In this document: positions 34,335 through 58,352 of the stretch, one piece after another
Position numbering within the stretch: position 1 is the first letter of the stretch
Layout of the letters: each line of letters opens with the position of its first letter
NCBI GenBank assembly: GCA_937870825.1
Contig: CALMZO010000329.1
Span: 1-64,000 of the forward strand
DNA length: 64,000 nucleotides
DNA from: an uncultured Chloroflexota bacterium
GTDB taxonomy: Bacteria; Chloroflexota; Anaerolineae; UBA4142; SHND01
Direction of reading: 5' to 3'
Position numbers and translations under genes: made by a program
Notes under the pieces: generated by a model
What the model was told of the DNA's origin: nothing
The model's database searches: none
What the model saw: the letters and a program-made list of their open reading frames with translations, nothing else

Positions 34335-36179
34335 GGTGATTGGCAATCCTTCCAGCTCCATAATCCTCAACGCGTTCGTCGTGGGCGAGGGTCCTGCGCG
34401 TAACGTGTAATCAAACACCAAACGCCCCTCGCTCACATCATCGCGAAAATGAAAATTGCGCGCGAGCGGATTTTTTTCGGGAATGTGCGCGAGTTCCAAA
34501 TCGTGCGTGGCGATGAGCCCCGCGCCGTTTGCGCCGAGTAAAGTGTAAATGTACGCGCGGCTGCCGATGAGTCGTTCGCGATTGTTCGTGCCGCGAAAAA
34601 TTTCATCAATGAGATAGAACAGCGGTAATTCCTCCGGTGCCCCGAGTTCCCTCAAAAGTTCTTTCAAGCATTTCACTTCCGCATAAAAGTACGAAAAGCC
34701 GTCGGCAATGGAATCGGTGATGCGAATGCAGGTACGCAAACGAAACGGCTGCGCGACAAAGTTCGCCGCGATGACCGGCGCGCCCGCGTAGGCGAGACAA
34801 AAGTTGATGCCGATGGTTTTGAGGAATGTGCTTTTCCCCGACATGTTGGAACCCGTGAGAATTTCCACTTGGCCCAAATTTTGAATTTCAAAATCGTTCG
34901 TGATGCGCGCGCGCGCGGGAATTAACGGATGCCCCAATTTTTCCGCGCGCAAAATCGGCGACGCGGGCGCTGAGAATTCGCGCGCGCGAATTTCGGGAAA
35001 CGCGGCGGCGGGATGCAGCGCGGCGAAATTGCCGAGCGCGATGAGCGCGTCGAGTTCATGCACCACGCGCACCCATTCGGGCAAGGTTTGCGCGACGCGC
35101 GCGCGCTGACGGTCGGCGAGAAACGCAAACAAAAAATCCCACGGCAAAATTAGATTGAGGAACACGGCGAACAACGGGTTGCTTCGCAAACCGACGGCGG
35201 CAGTAATCCACTGCACCACGCGCAATTGTTCGGAGGGCGCGGGGGTTTTGTTTTGAAACAGCGAGACGAGTTCCGCGAGATGCGGCGCATCGTGATATGA
35301 CGCGCGTTCGAGGTACTGCGCGAGCGCGCGAAATTTTTCGAGTTCGGTGTTGAGGCGCACGACGGCATTCAAAACTGCTTCCCTATGGTCTTTGTTCCAA
35401 AAATAAAATGCCACGTACGCCAGGAATGAAAAAATATAGTACGCGGGAACATTCCAAACTTGCGCGAGGGCAAACAAGACAAGATTTATGAAAACGAGAA
35501 TCGCCGCAATCGGCAGCGTCCAACGCAAACGCGCGGACGGGAATTCCGTTCTCAACCAATCGAGCAAATTGTCGCCTTCGAGTTCGCGTTGCAGCACGCG
35601 GCGATAGGTGAGCCAAAAGCGTTCGCGAAAACGCGCGCGCGTTTTCAATTCGCGCACGATGTTTTGGCGCGCGTGCAGCGCGTTCACGTCCGGACGCGAC
35701 TGCGTGAGCCATTCCGCAAGCAATTGTGTGCCGTGACGCGAAACGGTGGTGTCGAGGAGTTGATGGAGCGAATTGTAACCGGTGAGGTCAAGGTCACGCG
35801 CGAGGGATTTGCGCTCTGCGAGCAATTCAATCGGACGCGGCGCGGGAATGTTTTCCCAATCGAGGAGGAGGCGCGCGCGTTGGTCTTGTTTTTGCGCGCG
35901 TAAACGCGTCAGTGTTTCAATCCAATTATCCTGGCGGCGATGGACAAGCACGAGAAGCGAGAAAACGAGAAACGAGAGCGCGACAATGAACCACGCGAGT
36001 GTGCCATTGAAAAAAATCGCGGTCAGAATCGCAGCAACGATGCCGATTAAAACAATCGTGAGGCGTAACAGCGCGATTTGATTGCTGCGCTGTTCCAACG
36101 GAAGCAAACGTTTCGCCAGACGTTCAATTTGAAAATCAAGAGTTCTTGCACTTGATACCTGATACTTGATACTTGACAC
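34332..36179 (-). CDS. Membrane-anchored MutS-family ATPase
   Basis: EILTGSNMSGKSTFLKTIGINFCLAYAGAPV, YLIDEIFRGTNNRERLIGSRA, ATHDLELA; TM segments near residues 40-80 and 215-265. Confidence 0.85.
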   Translation of the reverse strand: MSSIKYQVSSARTLDFQIERLAKRLLPLEQRSNQIALLRLTIVLIGIVAAILTAIFFNGTLAWFIVALSFLVFSLLVLVHRRQDNWIETLTRLRAQKQDQRARLLLDWENIPAPRPIELLAERKSLARDLDLTGYNSLHQLLDTTVSRHGTQLLAEWLTQSRPDVNALHARQNIVRELKTRARFRERFWLTYRRVLQRELEGDNLLDWLRTEFPSARLRWTLPIAAILVFINLVLFALAQVWNVPAYYIFSFLAYVAFYFWNKDHREAVLNAVVRLNTELEKFRALAQYLERASYHDAPHLAELVSLFQNKTPAPSEQLRVVQWITAAVGLRSNPLFAVFLNLILPWDFLFAFLADRQRARVAQTLPEWVRVVHELDALIALGNFAALHPAAAFPEIRAREFSAPASPILRAEKLGHPLIPARARITNDFEIQNLGQVEILTGSNMSGKSTFLKTIGINFCLAYAGAPVIAANFVAQPFRLRTCIRITDSIADGFSYFYAEVKCLKELLRELGAPEELPLFYLIDEIFRGTNNRERLIGSRAYIYTLLGANGAGLIATHDLELAHIPEKNPLARNFHFRDDVSEGRLVFDYTLRAGPSPTTNALRIMELEGLPIT

Positions 36180-36182
36180 CTC
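36148..36182. repeat. Heptamer array GCACTTG ATACCTG ATACTTG ATACTTG ACACCTC at the 5' end of the MutS-like gene
   Basis: Direct reading; encodes N-terminal SSIKYQVSS on the minus strand. Confidence 0.7.
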
Positions 36183-37455: not shown

Positions 37456-37538
37456 AGTTTTGTGATGGAGCGATAGAGAGAGTTAGAGTGACAGAGAGAT
37501 GAGGTGATTATACTCGCGCTTGTTTATTTTCGCGCGCG

Positions 37539-37576
37539 AAAAAAAATCCAAGCCGCATTCGACTTGGATTTTTTTT
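37539..37576. terminator. Bidirectional intrinsic terminator
   Basis: aaaaaaaatccaag-ccgcattcga-cttggatttttttt. Confidence 0.9.
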
Positions 37577-37585
37577 GTAACTCAC

Positions 37586-37680
37586 GTTACGCAGCACTGT
37601 CATTTCGAGCCGCCTTTGCGAGAAATCTCAGTGGCGCGAAAACCGAGATTTCTCGCTGCTCTCGAAATGACATGCGTAAC
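37586..37680. repeat. CATTTCGAG palindromic element, copy with outer GTTACGCA/TGCGTAAC
   Basis: gtcatttcgagccgcctttgcgagaaatctcag...ccgagatttctcgctgctctcgaaatgac. Confidence 0.85.
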
Positions 37681-37694
37681 ATCAGTTTGTAAAT

Positions 37695-41800: not shown

Positions 41801-43006
41801 ACGAGCGAAAGCGACGGACACCAAGTCACCATCGGCGGCATTATCAAAAGCGTGCGCCAAATCACTACCAAAAAAGGCGACGCGATGGCGTTCCTCCAAG
41901 TCGAAGACCCGCAAGGTTCGATTGAAGTTGTCGCGTTTCCGCGTGTGTTCAACGACTGCCGCGATGTGATTCACGAAGACGCGCTGGTGCTTGTGCGCGG
42001 CAAAGTCCAGGTGCGCGAAGAAAAAATCGCGCTGCTCGCGGACTTGATTTGGAATTTTCCGATTGACGACGCGTCATCACGCATCCTGTTTGGGACAGGC
42101 GGGGCGCGTGATGACGCGTCAACTCCCAAACCCGAAGCCGTCGCGCACGCCGACCGACCCATTCCCGGAATTTTTTCCAACACGCCGGTCATTGTTCCCA
42201 AACCCCCGCCGAGCGTGAATGAAATCGTCGAACGCGTCATGGACGATTGGCTGCCGCCGCCGGGAGAGTGGGATGAGGAACAGACGACAGACGACAGACC
42301 ACAGACGAGAGACGAGAAACGACAAGCACATGTCATTGATGAAATTCCGCAAGCTACGGGAGTGATTGAACAAGTTGCGGCTGCTGAAAATTCAAATGTC
42401 ACTGTTGCCGAAACGCAGACGGAAACTCTCGACGCTGACGATGAATGGTTCAAACCGAATGACGACGCATTTGCGGAACCGGAACCAATTGCTTCGAATA
42501 TTGAAACGCTTACCCTAAAACAAGAAACAGTTAGCGTGCCTGTCGAACCACCAATGAACGAAATTCCAACACCCGCGCAAAACAGTGCGCCTCCCCCAAC
42601 CAATCCCGTTCCCGAAATCAAACTCGGCGGCGGCGTCGCCATTCCGAGCAAGAATGCCGGCAACGGCGCGACGCGCCCGCAGCATTCCGCGCCTGCCCCA
42701 CGCGGCAATGTGGGAAACGTCGCGCGCGAAAATTCTCCCGTCTATGTTCCGCGCGGCAATGGCAACACGCGCCGCGTGCGCGTACGCATGTATCGCACGA
42801 ACGACGACGCGCTCGACACGAAACGAATGCGCGAAGTGGTGAAACTATTACGCAGCGCGGAAGGACGTGACCGCTTTGCGCTCATTGTCCCGTCGCAAAA
42901 AAGTTGGATCGAACTCGACTTTCCAAATTTCTATACCAACATTGACCAAGTGATGCCCGTCCTGATGGATAGAGTAAGTGATTGGGGCGAAGTAGAGTTG
43001 GGTTGA
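38897..43006 (+). CDS. dnaE: DNA polymerase III subunit alpha with extended C-terminal tail
   Basis: FVHLHVHSEYSLLDGLSR PHP; PDIDLDFPDDARQDMI; FQLEGGGMKRV; SHAAVYGVLTCQTAYLKAHY; OB fold. Start at MTDFVHL. Confidence 0.95.
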   Translation: MTDFVHLHVHSEYSLLDGLSRTKGLAARAKQLNMPAVAVTDHGTMFAAIEFYDACKEQGVKPIIGVEAYLAPRTMADRDGKLDRSPYHLVLLAENESGYKNLLKISSTAQLQGFYQKPRVDKRYLENVSEGIIATTGCLAAEIPQLLVHGKTKQARDLVDWYRQIFQDRFYVELQEHGIPELTRVNRDLIALAREFKLKLIATNDVHYVAKEDWFAQDVLLCVQTGATVNQSDRMKMDGRDYWFKSQDEMLEVWGELPEALTNTLEIAERCNVDLSFKGYHLPNFTVPEGFTPASYLRAICEQGFRQRYPDASPAYIERLNYELGVIHKMGFETYFLIVWDLCRHARENGIWANARGSAAGSMVAYCLGITHLDPLEHNLIFERFLNPDRISMPDIDLDFPDDARQDMINYTVNKYGKENVAQIITFGKMLAKAAIRDVGRAMDYPLSETDRVAKLIPIGPGQTIDGSLENVREFRELYEGSDYIRKLIDNAKLLEGVTRNASTHAAGVVVTDKPVIEYTPLHRPTRGDESGTPVTQYPMGDLEHIGLLKIDFLGLAHLTIVREACKLINERHGTNYDLNSIPVEDAKAFELMARGDVIGLFQLEGGGMKRVVTQMRPTKFDHIVATIALYRPGPMDYIPDYIARLHGQQKIEYRHPALEPILGETFGIMIYQEQIMRIARDLCGFSGGETDTLRKAVGKKNKEAILKQREKFISGAGKTGIITKEIASGIFDDIEFFARYGFNKSHAAVYGVLTCQTAYLKAHYTIEYMTALLCTDIGNTEKIAMFIAEARHLGIQILPPDVRYSGMKFTIDDGAHAIRAGLLAIKNVGEGPVQAILDGRDEKPFDSLDDFCTRVDLKQVNRRVLESLMKAGAFDAFGHRAQLLEAIDQMLSVSASHHSASAAGQLSMFGGMLAADTFGELPKVKEIDNKTQLEWEKELMGVYFTPHPLLKLADAAKKHVGAFTGEITSESDGHQVTIGGIIKSVRQITTKKGDAMAFLQVEDPQGSIEVVAFPRVFNDCRDVIHEDALVLVRGKVQVREEKIALLADLIWNFPIDDASSRILFGTGGARDDASTPKPEAVAHADRPIPGIFSNTPVIVPKPPPSVNEIVERVMDDWLPPPGEWDEEQTTDDRPQTRDEKRQAHVIDEIPQATGVIEQVAAAENSNVTVAETQTETLDADDEWFKPNDDAFAEPEPIASNIETLTLKQETVSVPVEPPMNEIPTPAQNSAPPPTNPVPEIKLGGGVAIPSKNAGNGATRPQHSAPAPRGNVGNVARENSPVYVPRGNGNTRRVRVRMYRTNDDALDTKRMREVVKLLRSAEGRDRFALIVPSQKSWIELDFPNFYTNIDQVMPVLMDRVSDWGEVELG
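42068..42120. repeat. Palindromic element inside dnaE: GACGCGTCATCACGC...GCGTGATGACGCGTC
   Basis: Perfect 15-bp arms; encodes DDASSRILFGTGGARDDAST. Related to about 55870-55925. Confidence 0.85.
42280..42328. repeat. Heptamer array ACAGACG ACAGACG ACAGACC ACAGACG AGAGACG AGAAACG ACAAGCA inside dnaE
   Basis: Direct reading; encodes EEQTTDDRPQTRDEKRQA in the C-terminal linker. Confidence 0.85.
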
Positions 43007-43046
43007 AAAAAAATCCGATGCGTGCCGCATCGGATTTTTTTTCAAC
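43002..43046. terminator. Intrinsic terminator overlapping the dnaE stop codon
   Basis: gttgaaaaaaaatccgatgcg-tgc-cgcatcggattttttttcaac: 21-bp perfect stem. Confidence 0.92.
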
Positions 43047-43051
43047 GTTGA

Positions 43052-43057
43052 TATAAT
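43052..43057 (+). promoter_or_regulatory. TATAAT 7 nt upstream of ATG 43065 (possible leaderless transcript)
   Basis: gttgatataatcaagcacATG. Confidence 0.4.
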
Positions 43058-43064
43058 CAAGCAC

Positions 43065-47699: not shown

Positions 47700-48734
47700 C
47701 TAGCGCGGCTCCACCTTGAGCACGTTCGACGAAACCCAAAAAATTCGATTGTTCACGCGGACTTGGTACAAGACAGAGGATTCGACTTGGGCGCGTTGAA
47801 TGGCCTCGCCGCCGCCCGCGCCGGAAATTTCCGCGCACAGTCCCAAAATCAACGGACGCGGCGACTGCGCTTCACACGCGAAAATTGTATCGCTCACAAA
47901 TTCGACGCGTGCTCCGGCAACGTTCGTATCGTATTGCGGAAGCGGCGCGGGCGTTCCGACAACATTGTCGTTCAGAGTCCAAAAATGGAGTGTGCCGCCG
48001 CTCGACAAAAGATGTGTAAAAGCGCCCTCTTGCGCGAGAATTTGAAATGCGGAATTCGTGTCGGGCGCGGTGTAGAGCCACAGTTGGTCTGTCGGCATCG
48101 GCGCGTCTTGATTCAACGCAAACACTTGCGCGAAGGGTTTGAGATACACCGTTCCTGCGGGAGGCGGCGTCGGCGTATCTTGTACCGTCAACACACCGCC
48201 TTGGTGCACAATGACCAACGGTTGCCCCGTGCGGTCTACGCGCGTTTGCAACGTGTACGAACAACCCGGCGCGAATTCAACTTGCCCCGTCACCACCAAA
48301 TTGTTTGTCGCATTCGGCACAAGCGGCACTTTTAATTCCACCGGACGCGCCGTCGAAAAATCTCCCTGCTGCGAAACCGTTCCCGCTTCGCTCGTAATCG
48401 TAATCGCGCGCCCGCGTCCCAACGTGACAGAAATTTTTTGTGACAACAAATTCGTCGGCGATACGACAGGATTCACCCACAACGGTTCAGGCGTCGCGGG
48501 AATCGGACAGCCGCTTGTGGGCAAAGGCAATGGCGCAAGCGTTGGAATGTCAGTTGGTCGGAGAGTCGGAATTTCAGTTGGGAAAAGGGTTGGCGACGCG
48601 AGCGCGATTTGTGTTGGCGTGCGCGTGGGAATTGGCGCAGTCAACGCGCCGAAAAACGAAATCAGCAGCGGTAACGCGATGATGAGGACGACGAGCAAAG
48701 CGAGCGCGGCAATACGCGCGAATCGTTCGGGCAT
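47700..48734 (-). CDS. Secreted/anchored protein with Pro/Thr-rich linker and SH3-like C-terminus
   Basis: MPERFARIAALALLVVLIIALPLLISFF TM; PTRTPTQIALASPTLFPTEIPTLRPTDIPTLAPLPLPTSGCP; VESSVLYQVRVNNRIFWVSSNVLKVEPR. The track start at 48842 reads through the repeat array. Confidence 0.6.
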   Translation of the reverse strand: MPERFARIAALALLVVLIIALPLLISFFGALTAPIPTRTPTQIALASPTLFPTEIPTLRPTDIPTLAPLPLPTSGCPIPATPEPLWVNPVVSPTNLLSQKISVTLGRGRAITITSEAGTVSQQGDFSTARPVELKVPLVPNATNNLVVTGQVEFAPGCSYTLQTRVDRTGQPLVIVHQGGVLTVQDTPTPPPAGTVYLKPFAQVFALNQDAPMPTDQLWLYTAPDTNSAFQILAQEGAFTHLLSSGGTLHFWTLNDNVVGTPAPLPQYDTNVAGARVEFVSDTIFACEAQSPRPLILGLCAEISGAGGGEAIQRAQVESSVLYQVRVNNRIFWVSSNVLKVEPR

Positions 48735-48737
48735 TTT

Positions 48738-48842
48738 GAATAAAGGATGAGGGATAAAGGATGAAGGATAAAAGTAATCAGTAATCAGTAATCGGTAATC
48801 AGTAGACTGATTACTGATTACTGACCTCTGATTACTGTTCAC
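48738..48842. repeat. Fifteen contiguous in-phase heptamers with inverted arms (AGTAATC.../...GATTACT)
   Basis: GAATAAA GGATGAG GGATAAA GGATGAA GGATAAA AGTAATC AGTAATC AGTAATC GGTAATC AGTAGAC TGATTAC TGATTAC TGACCTC TGATTAC TGTTCAC. Confidence 0.92.
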
Positions 48843-52830: not shown

Positions 52831-53745
52831 TTAAACCCACGAGGCGATGCTCTGCTCCAACTCTTGCGGGGTATAAAAGTGTTGCGCATACTGGGTGCTG
52901 TGCCATTCGGTTACCCAATCGCGTGGCAGGCAAAGTGCCTTCAAAAAATCGCCGTGGATATTGCCAGTTCGTTTTGTCTCACCTACGTTGCGATTGACCA
53001 AACGAAACTCTGGAATTCCAAGAAAATCGTACATGGCTTGGGTTGCGACTTGATTCAGGTCTTCCAGCCGCACAAGCAACAAGCTCAGGTTTTGATGGTG
53101 ATAAATCTGATAGCCGCGCGTTTTATCGAAGGGTACGGCATACACATCGAGTCCAAACGGTTCTTGGAGTTGACGCTGAAACCAACCACGCGGCGTATGG
53201 TCACCGAAACGATGAACAAAATAGTCTGTAACTTCGGAGATGCCAAGTTCACCGCGTTCATATCGTTCTACCGGATTCGGAAAATGATTTTCGATATTTT
53301 CAAAAAATGCCGAAATCAAGCGCGGCACAGGCAGGCGCGTCAAACTGATGAAATTCCATTTTTTGTTCGGGTGCCGTGCCATTTCGGCGCGGACCTCCTT
53401 GGCCACTTTAATCAGTTGCAGCGCTTGTGCTGCTTGTGCTGGCGTGCGACGCTGCGACACCTCTGCCATGTAGTCCAATTCATTCAAATAATGCAAATGA
53501 TACAGCGGCACACCCAATTCCAAACGCTTGAGGGAATAATAGACCGAAGTCGAACCGACTTTGCCCATTTGATACACGACGATGGGGTTGCGAATGCCGA
53601 ATTTTTTCGGCGCGCGTCCAAGCGTACGCGCAACATGCACGCCCCCGCCGTTCCAATACATCCACCGCGCTGCCCAGTCGAAAACGCCTTGCACGCCCTC
53701 TTGCGTGAGGCGTTCATTCAATTTTTGCAGACGAAAACTTTTCAT
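52831..53745 (-). CDS. Putative capsular polysaccharide synthesis / sulfotransferase-like protein (NKWYS-type), copy 2
   Basis: NPIVVYQMGKVGSTSVYYSLKRLELGVPLYHLH; SLTRLPVPRLISAFFENIENHF. Confidence 0.75.
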   Translation of the reverse strand: MKSFRLQKLNERLTQEGVQGVFDWAARWMYWNGGGVHVARTLGRAPKKFGIRNPIVVYQMGKVGSTSVYYSLKRLELGVPLYHLHYLNELDYMAEVSQRRTPAQAAQALQLIKVAKEVRAEMARHPNKKWNFISLTRLPVPRLISAFFENIENHFPNPVERYERGELGISEVTDYFVHRFGDHTPRGWFQRQLQEPFGLDVYAVPFDKTRGYQIYHHQNLSLLLVRLEDLNQVATQAMYDFLGIPEFRLVNRNVGETKRTGNIHGDFLKALCLPRDWVTEWHSTQYAQHFYTPQELEQSIASWV

Positions 53746-53760
53746 CGCTTTATCACGATT

Positions 53761-54690
53761 CTACACCCACCGCGCCACACTCGCCGCCAATTCGCTCTCG
53801 TTGTAAAAATGGCGCGCATAGCGCGTGGCGTCTGTAGCGTTAATATATTCGCGCGGCAAACGCAGCTGCGCGAGAAACTCGCGGTACAGGGCGCCGTACG
53901 GTTTTTCACTGCCGATATTTTTTTGTGACAATTGAAAATGCGGCAGTCCCAAAAACGCGCGCATCGCGTCACCAACACACGCATTCAGATTTTCCAGGCG
54001 AATCAGCAACAAACGCGCGCGTTCGTTCTCGTACATCGCGTAACCTTGCGCGTGCGGAAACGGCGTGGCAAAAACATCAATGCCAAACACATCGCGCACC
54101 TGGTCGTCGAACCAATGAATCATGGACGTATCTTGAAAGCGCGCCCAAAACGTTTCATTCAATTCTGCAACGCCGATTTCATTGTTTTTCCAACGTTCCC
54201 AAAAGTTTGGCACATACGCGTCCACGTTTTCAAAAAAATCCGACAGCGCGCGGGGAATCGGCGCGCGCACCAAACTCACGAGCGCCCATTTTTGCCACCG
54301 CGCGCTGTCCACAAGGTTTCGCAGCGCGCGTCCTTCGCGGAGCGCGGCAAGATTGCCTGTCGGGTCTATGCGCGTCCGCCGCACGCCTTCTTCGTACACC
54401 TCAAAGCGATTCAAAACGTGCGCGTGATACACCGGCACATCCAAATCCAAATCGCGCAGCGCATCATACACCGACGACGAACCGACTTTGCCCATCTGGT
54501 AGACAATGATGGGCGTGTCAATGTTAAATTTTTTGCGCGACCGGCGATATTTCAATTCCGCGCGCACGCGCGGCATCGCAGGCACGCGATACAGCTTCCC
54601 TTTCCAGTACAGCCAGTTCGCAGCCCACCCGGGCAGCCCGCGAATGCCTTGTTCGTTCACGCGTCGTTGGATTTTTTGCAAGGCCATCAT
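53761..54690 (-). CDS. Putative capsular polysaccharide synthesis / sulfotransferase-like protein (NKWYS-type), copy 1
   Basis: TPIIVYQMGKVGSSSVYDALRDLDLDVPVYHAH; SLVRAPIPRALSDFFENVDAYVPN. Paralog of 52831-53745. Confidence 0.75.
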   Translation of the reverse strand: MMALQKIQRRVNEQGIRGLPGWAANWLYWKGKLYRVPAMPRVRAELKYRRSRKKFNIDTPIIVYQMGKVGSSSVYDALRDLDLDVPVYHAHVLNRFEVYEEGVRRTRIDPTGNLAALREGRALRNLVDSARWQKWALVSLVRAPIPRALSDFFENVDAYVPNFWERWKNNEIGVAELNETFWARFQDTSMIHWFDDQVRDVFGIDVFATPFPHAQGYAMYENERARLLLIRLENLNACVGDAMRAFLGLPHFQLSQKNIGSEKPYGALYREFLAQLRLPREYINATDATRYARHFYNESELAASVARWV

Positions 54691-55869: not shown

Positions 55870-55956
55870 TGACGCATCATCACGCACAATGCCACTCGAC
55901 GCGCGGCATGCGTGATGACGTGTCACAGCCCTCATCCCTCATCCCTTATCTTCCCA
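55870..55956. repeat. GCGTGATGACG palindrome plus heptamers CCCTCAT CCCTCAT CCCTTAT
   Basis: TGACGCATCATCACGCA 55870-55886 / TGCGTGATGACGTGTCA 55909-55925; heptamers 55929-55949. Confidence 0.75.
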
Positions 55957-58289: not shown

Positions 58290-58352
58290 TCTGTGTTCTG
58301 TAATCTGTGTTCTGACATCCGTGTTCTGTCATCTGTACTCTGTAATCTGAAA
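58283..58352. repeat. Ten contiguous heptamers TCTGNNN, with an inverted partner arm at 58241-58264
   Basis: TCTGTAA TCTGTGT TCTGTAA TCTGTGT TCTGACA TCCGTGT TCTGTCA TCTGTAC TCTGTAA TCTGAAA. Confidence 0.92.

Follow-up and report, generated by a model that had tools for sequence, protein, structure and literature searches.

Palindromic REP/BIME elements and REPINs are intercistronic and are transcribed between co-directional genes, and they have one sequence in common genome-wide, which is not made of 7-nt words. Among described heptanucleotide repeats, the GGGAATC heptads of Xanthomonas are dispersed and intergenic, lie mostly between aligned genes near or overlapping stop codons (16% are between convergent genes), and include 70–75 inverted (convergent) pairs able to form stem–loops (PMC4692102). 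They consist of one G-rich, quadruplex-forming word throughout the genome, with the G-rich strand coding after stop codons and non-coding before start codons; transcripts begin or end in the quadruplex-forming repeats at a higher frequency than in controls, and a regulatory role was not identified (PMC4692102). The TAACTGA direct repeats of Beggiatoaceae, cyanobacteria and Bacteroidetes are intergenic heptads near start codons, built from one word with related words rarely repeated, with one inverted case in 170 sets and, in the Maribeggiatoa genome, two to six units per set (PMC4679880). The heptads of Nostoc form few inverted pairs only (PMC4692102), and the GATAGRA heptamer satellites of Chloroflexus aurantiacus are dispersed and belong to a single word family (PMC6749651). 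In the literature on Chloroflexota we found no description of inverted heptads in operon spacers.

The spacer described here lies in a window of 64,000 nt (the whole stretch of DNA that was analysed) from a 7.2-Mb draft metagenome assembly of an Anaerolineae bacterium (Chloroflexota) with about 5% contamination. The 105 nt from 48738 to 48842 divide exactly into 15 in-phase heptads, which on the plus strand read GAATAAA, GGATGAG, GGATAAA, GGATGAA, GGATAAA (heptads 1–5), AGTAATC, AGTAATC, AGTAATC, GGTAATC, AGTAGAC (6–10) and TGATTAC, TGATTAC, TGACCTC, TGATTAC, TGTTCAC (11–15), heptads 1 and 15 being loose matches only. At lag 7, 70 of 98 positions match (identity 0.71), with harmonics at lags 14 and 21 (0.66 and 0.52, respectively), while the other lags from 1 to 13 give identities of 0.14–0.36; TRF resolves the interval into three adjoining period-7 arrays. 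The spacer contains an inverted repeat with arms of 34 nt that are 85% complementary and 2 nt apart. The original prediction of an exact 15-heptamer parse, of a strict period of 7 with changing words and of inverted arms able to fold on each other was thus borne out on all three counts, by the interval read word by word, by the lag-7 identity together with the three TRF arrays, and by the inverted repeat. That the heptads fill the whole spacer holds for the 15 in-phase words but not for the boundaries, as the spacer proper is 48735–48838 and the terminal word TGTTCAC overlaps the ATPase stop codon (48839–48841).

Both genes that flank the spacer are encoded on the minus strand (Table 1), so that on the mRNA the order is ATPase stop codon, hairpin (AGTAATC and then GATTACT words), unpaired TTTATCC words and the next ATG. 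The stem begins 2 nt past the ATPase stop codon; between it and the next ATG lie TTTATCC/TTCATCC words that stay unpaired over about 38 nt. The predicted fold has a free energy of −36.2 kcal/mol, compared with −11.2 ± 2.5 kcal/mol in shuffled sequences (z −10.2). A search of Rfam with the spacer gave nothing above the gathering score, only sub-threshold microRNA-like matches, and no obvious Shine–Dalgarno sequence precedes the downstream gene. Neither the ATPase nor the downstream membrane-anchored protein had a match in Pfam, and the ‘HerA/VirB4-like’ identity first assigned to the ATPase was therefore not confirmed. Elsewhere in the window, 52831–54687 holds two adjoining paralogous genes of ~305 aa each with the common motif IVYQMGKVGS(T/S)SVY.

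Table 1. Coordinates of the target spacer, its flanking genes and further arrays within the window
Feature	Position	Strand	Basis
Downstream gene, membrane-anchored protein	47700..48734	−	Gene prediction
GGATGAA/GGATAAA heptad array; on the mRNA, unpaired pyrimidine-rich leader (TTTATCC/TTCATCC) right before the next ATG	48738..48772	−	TRF; fold
AGTAATC-type heptad array (plus-strand reading); on the mRNA, 3' stem arm, (GATTACT)n	48773..48804	−	TRF period 7; inverted repeat
TGATTAC-type heptad array (plus-strand reading); on the mRNA, 5' stem arm, (AGTAATC)n	48806..48837	−	TRF period 7; inverted repeat
Predicted RNA stem–loop, 28 bp, 3 symmetric mismatches	48773..48836	−	Fold prediction, MFE −36.2 kcal/mol, z −10.2
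Upstream gene, predicted ATPase, 837 aa, GGGK P-loop	48839..51352	−	Gene prediction; orthologues in relatives
Same kind: co-directional spacer, AAGTATC-type heptads	36108..36180	−	Array scan and gene calls
Same kind, short: co-directional spacer, GGGATGA heptads	55878..55945	−	Array scan and gene calls
Same kind: co-directional spacer, (TCTGTNN)n heptads, direct only	58290..58351	+	TRF and gene calls
Coding variant: stop-free in-frame ACAGACG heptads, poorly conserved C-terminal stretch of dnaE-like gene	42277..42325	+	Array scan

This spacer does not stand alone: intercistronic hairpins made from short-period tandem words, mostly heptads, form a class that extends over the genome. Used as a query, it has 64 matches in its own genome. 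A scan of 0.70 Mb with a criterion of at least 18 of 21 lag-7 matches found 52 arrays, against none in Markov-shuffled sequence, with 8 arrays at lag 8, 3 at lag 9 and none at lags 5, 10 and 11. Lag-7 autocorrelation, which had been named as a genome-wide check, is therefore above background and dominates the spectrum. In a further shuffle test, 42 of 224 spacers carried arrays where 0.05 would be expected. Genome-wide counts were taken from an unselected 1.16 Mb, a 16% sample of this genome, with genes called by a purpose-written hexamer gene finder and with thresholds that were chosen by hand and not preregistered; heptad-filled gaps probably number several hundred in all. The words themselves are diverse, with 73 canonical classes among 163 arrays and 18 arrays in the commonest class, so there is no one consensus word for this genome. 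Nor is AGTAATC a marker of the lineage, since exact triplets of it occur in 7 of 301 other Chloroflexota genomes, mostly from one other family of the class. The array of contig L146 shifts stepwise and in phase (ATGAGGG, ATGAAGG, ATGAACG, ACGAAGG, ACGAACG, ACGAATA), and the identity between units falls with their distance, from 0.72 through 0.65, 0.59 and 0.52 to 0.44, which fits the prediction of copying from the neighbouring unit. In some arrays a constant 4-mer is apparent beside a variable 3-mer (GAGC+NNN, ACTG+NNN); as a general rule this was rejected, the overall effect being small (0.648 versus 0.629 permuted). The longest array, in L087 (13596–13841), has 35 units over about 246 nt and consists of GAGC with a variable trimer (AAT, GAT, GTT, ATT). 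Units of other lengths also occur: at 651–703 of the window 7- and 8-nt units alternate (TTTGACG/TTTTGACG) and appear as period 15, and a co-directional gap at L120 15202 holds a period-9 array (CACAGAGGA ... AAGGACACG).

The arrays have a marked genomic context. Outside predicted genes lie 52 of 76, while 15% of the sequence is intergenic. When spacers of up to 200 nt in the 1.16 Mb are considered, a heptad array is present in 77 of the 357 co-directional ones but in none of the 43 convergent or 27 divergent ones (77/357 versus 0/70, Fisher p 2.8e-7), and the rate in co-directional spacers peaks at 32% for lengths of 50–120 nt. Pooled with relatives and over all lengths, the corresponding figures are 113/637 co-directional, 8/115 divergent and 0/99 convergent (co-directional versus convergent, p 3.5e-8). 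Another family of the order has periods spread over 7, 8, 9 and 10 and hairpins of the same design; there, with the other periods included, 4 of 37 convergent gaps carry arrays, so the strict absence from convergent gaps applies to heptads. The array within the dnaE-like gene is translated in frame as TTDDRPQTRDEKRQ, and at the same place in the relative G005 there is a related repeat, also in frame, QTTDDRRQTTDERQ.

Each array spacer was divided into halves, and the first was compared with the second (a match being at least 14 of 18). By this measure 42% of the arrays of this genome have arms that are inverted repeats matched within the locus, against 6% in cross-locus comparisons; the figures for relatives were 41% and 2%. 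A strong locus-matched inverted arm is missing from more than half of the arrays, and the hairpin is therefore not universal. In the 44 array spacers with strong stems, the stem starts a median of 2.5 nt past the upstream stop codon, and 73% of stems start within 5 nt of it, compared with 44% under random placement in the same gaps, a bias that none of 2000 random trials reached. Stems lie closer to the stop codon than to the start codon. Hairpins, ordinary terminators included, are also found in non-array spacers, and the mean fold z of co-directional spacers is −2.1 without and −2.4 with arrays; it is therefore not the hairpin as such that is special but its periodic, word-built form. The 5' half or arm is purine-rich in 58 of 77 array spacers of this genome (p 7e-9); as a general rule this was rejected, as it was not repeated in a second family (10/25).

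The arrays share with intergenic heptameric simple sequence repeats their head-to-tail 7-nt units, their many dispersed loci and their mainly intergenic position. As with the Xanthomonas GGGAATC heptads, paired inverted copies lie near the stop codon, and the purine-rich 5' half resembles the Xanthomonas polarity in this genome, though not in the second family. The inverted layout had been thought distinct from everything known, and this cannot be upheld given ~70 inverted GGGAATC pairs with stop-codon bias in Xanthomonas (PMC4692102). Unlike in Xanthomonas, there are 73 word classes here and few G-runs, none of 99 convergent gaps has an array, and at orthologous sites both the words and the periods are replaced. 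In the words of the target spacer GGG occurs just once, where two units meet, and no G-tract quadruplex-forming word of the Xanthomonas type was found in it. The TAACTGA repeats have a nearly identical counterpart here in the word TTACTGA, and ‘split’ sets with related words are common to both. The analogy first drawn with cyanobacterial STRRs, such as the GGGGA(C/T)T repeats of heterocystous species, is a fair one in that these too are heptad tandem arrays, mostly intergenic, but the likeness is weaker than that to Xanthomonas. In 200 kb of a Nostoc plasmid, lag-7 arrays were few; convergent gaps held two, and short co-directional gaps had none. The GATAGRA arrays of Chloroflexus aurantiacus come from the same phylum and are likewise dispersed heptamers, but of a single word family, and the accessible part of their description reports neither inversion nor operon context (PMC6749651). 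Unlike REP/BIME elements, the arrays have no conserved palindrome common to loci, as the 6% of cross-locus arm matches indicates. We judge that the class belongs to the kind known from Xanthomonas, Beggiatoaceae and cyanobacteria, of which it is a many-worded, inverted and operon-internal variant; it differs from what is known in its many words per genome, in keeping heptads out of convergent gaps and in being rewritten where junctions are orthologous.

Relatives retain both the ATPase and its downstream partner, and flanking proteins are 65–90% identical between species while words, and even periods, turn over. At the orthologous ATPase junction G004 has a gap of 18 nt and G013 one of about 5 nt, and the gap of G006 is without periodicity; in G005 the gap consists of different heptads that fold weakly (z −2.0), G009 and G011 have inverted nonamers with unrelated words (z −6.4 and −5.0), and G020 has inverted heptads of a different word (GTGAAAC/GCATCAC, z −5.2). 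Orthologous spacers, which had been proposed as a further check, thus proved unrelated in sequence, yet those of G009, G011 and G020 are inverted short-period arrays, so that the same form turns up again with its sequence rewritten. This recurrence may be partly coincidence, because about 1/5 to 1/3 of such gaps carry arrays anyway, and the gaps of 5–18 nt in relatives show that the hairpin is dispensable. In G005 the genes that flank the 55878–55945 gap overlap by 4 nt. In another family, the gaps orthologous to it (L032 4859 and L109) have inverted decamer hairpins (ACGCGGACAA / TCCGCGTTCA), a design that recurs in L033 and L035. The long gap at 37456–37694 of the window has a palindromic element (TCATTTCGAG...GAAATCTCG ... 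CGAGATTTC...CGAAATGA), which is missing from the 9-nt gap of G005. Within the assembly itself, two 87%-identical contigs, L075 and L162, have a 107-nt array and a 40-nt non-periodic gap, respectively, at the same junction. The synteny of these contigs (G000 C16 and C32) at about 87% identity suggests that the bin includes a second strain or species.

Our working hypothesis, to which we assign a probability of about 0.45, is that the arrays are born by slippage and fold-back copying and are kept as intercistronic RNA hairpins. Each would originate at its own locus through replication slippage in steps of 7 nt, together with fold-back copying (template switching), which would give both arms the same word; such an origin is backed indirectly by the decay of unit identity and by the locus-matched arms. 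Arrays would then be transcribed within operons as strong stem–loops. As intercistronic mRNA structures these may set the two cistrons apart, impeding both read-through and reinitiation in the interval from stop to start codon, and may protect the upstream 3' end, as REP elements do but without a fixed sequence. In the target spacer, the unpaired UC-rich heptads past the stem may provide the downstream gene with a leader.

Nearly as likely is a neutral origin, in which slippage and template-switch errors would seed arrays wherever purifying selection tolerates them and the hairpin would be functionless. Such a by-product would accord with the turnover of words and periods between conserved proteins, with the variable presence of arrays at orthologous junctions, with the in-frame arrays inside poorly conserved stretches of genes and with the many arrays that are not inverted. 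However, it must explain the heptad-free convergent gaps, which should tolerate arrays most, and it does not predict the bias of stems toward the stop codon.

Other explanations are considerably weaker. We think it unlikely that a dedicated polymerase or reverse transcriptase, with a ~7-nt step and snap-back, writes sequence-arbitrary hairpins into operon junctions as a structure-only regulatory layer, whose form and stop-codon position would be maintained although each species has its sequence written anew. A mobile or templated element, inserted at stop/start junctions by a transposase or polymerase (MITE-like, or by snap-back synthesis through a reverse transcriptase or repair polymerase), would account for the near-empty junctions (18 nt in G004, 40 nt in L162) and for the locus-matched arms, and two RVT_1 proteins are encoded in the genome; it is nevertheless improbable, as reverse transcriptases are no specific indication of it, no sequence is common to loci among the 73 word classes, and the few near-empty junctions compared have no obvious target-site duplication. 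There is only a slight chance that the arrays are protein-binding iterons or translation-initiation signals whose word is recognized by a protein, as proposed for TAACTGA in Beggiatoaceae: arrays often sit right before start codons and TTACTGA is one base off TAACTGA (PMC4679880), but the unrelated words are too many for one binding protein and stems are nearer the stop than the start. Intrinsic terminators or attenuators, suggested by strong stems between genes, were rejected as least probable of all, since, in agreement with the original prediction, the target region has no terminator-like site (GC-rich stem and T-run) and the heptad class is absent from the convergent gaps where terminators belong, while other spacers of the genome have ordinary hairpin and T-tract terminators (e.g. 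43007–43064).

Returning to slippage, fold-back copying and retention as RNA hairpins, a mechanism of 7-nt steps with inversion would, if the pattern holds, become testable, as would the question of whether intercistronic hairpins can be kept for their shape alone. About 1/5 of short within-operon gaps in these uncultured Chloroflexota would then contain heptad arrays, of which many would be hairpins with an arbitrary sequence and so invisible to searches for conserved sequence, and the scattered reports from Xanthomonas, Beggiatoaceae, cyanobacteria and Chloroflexus would be joined as one phenomenon.
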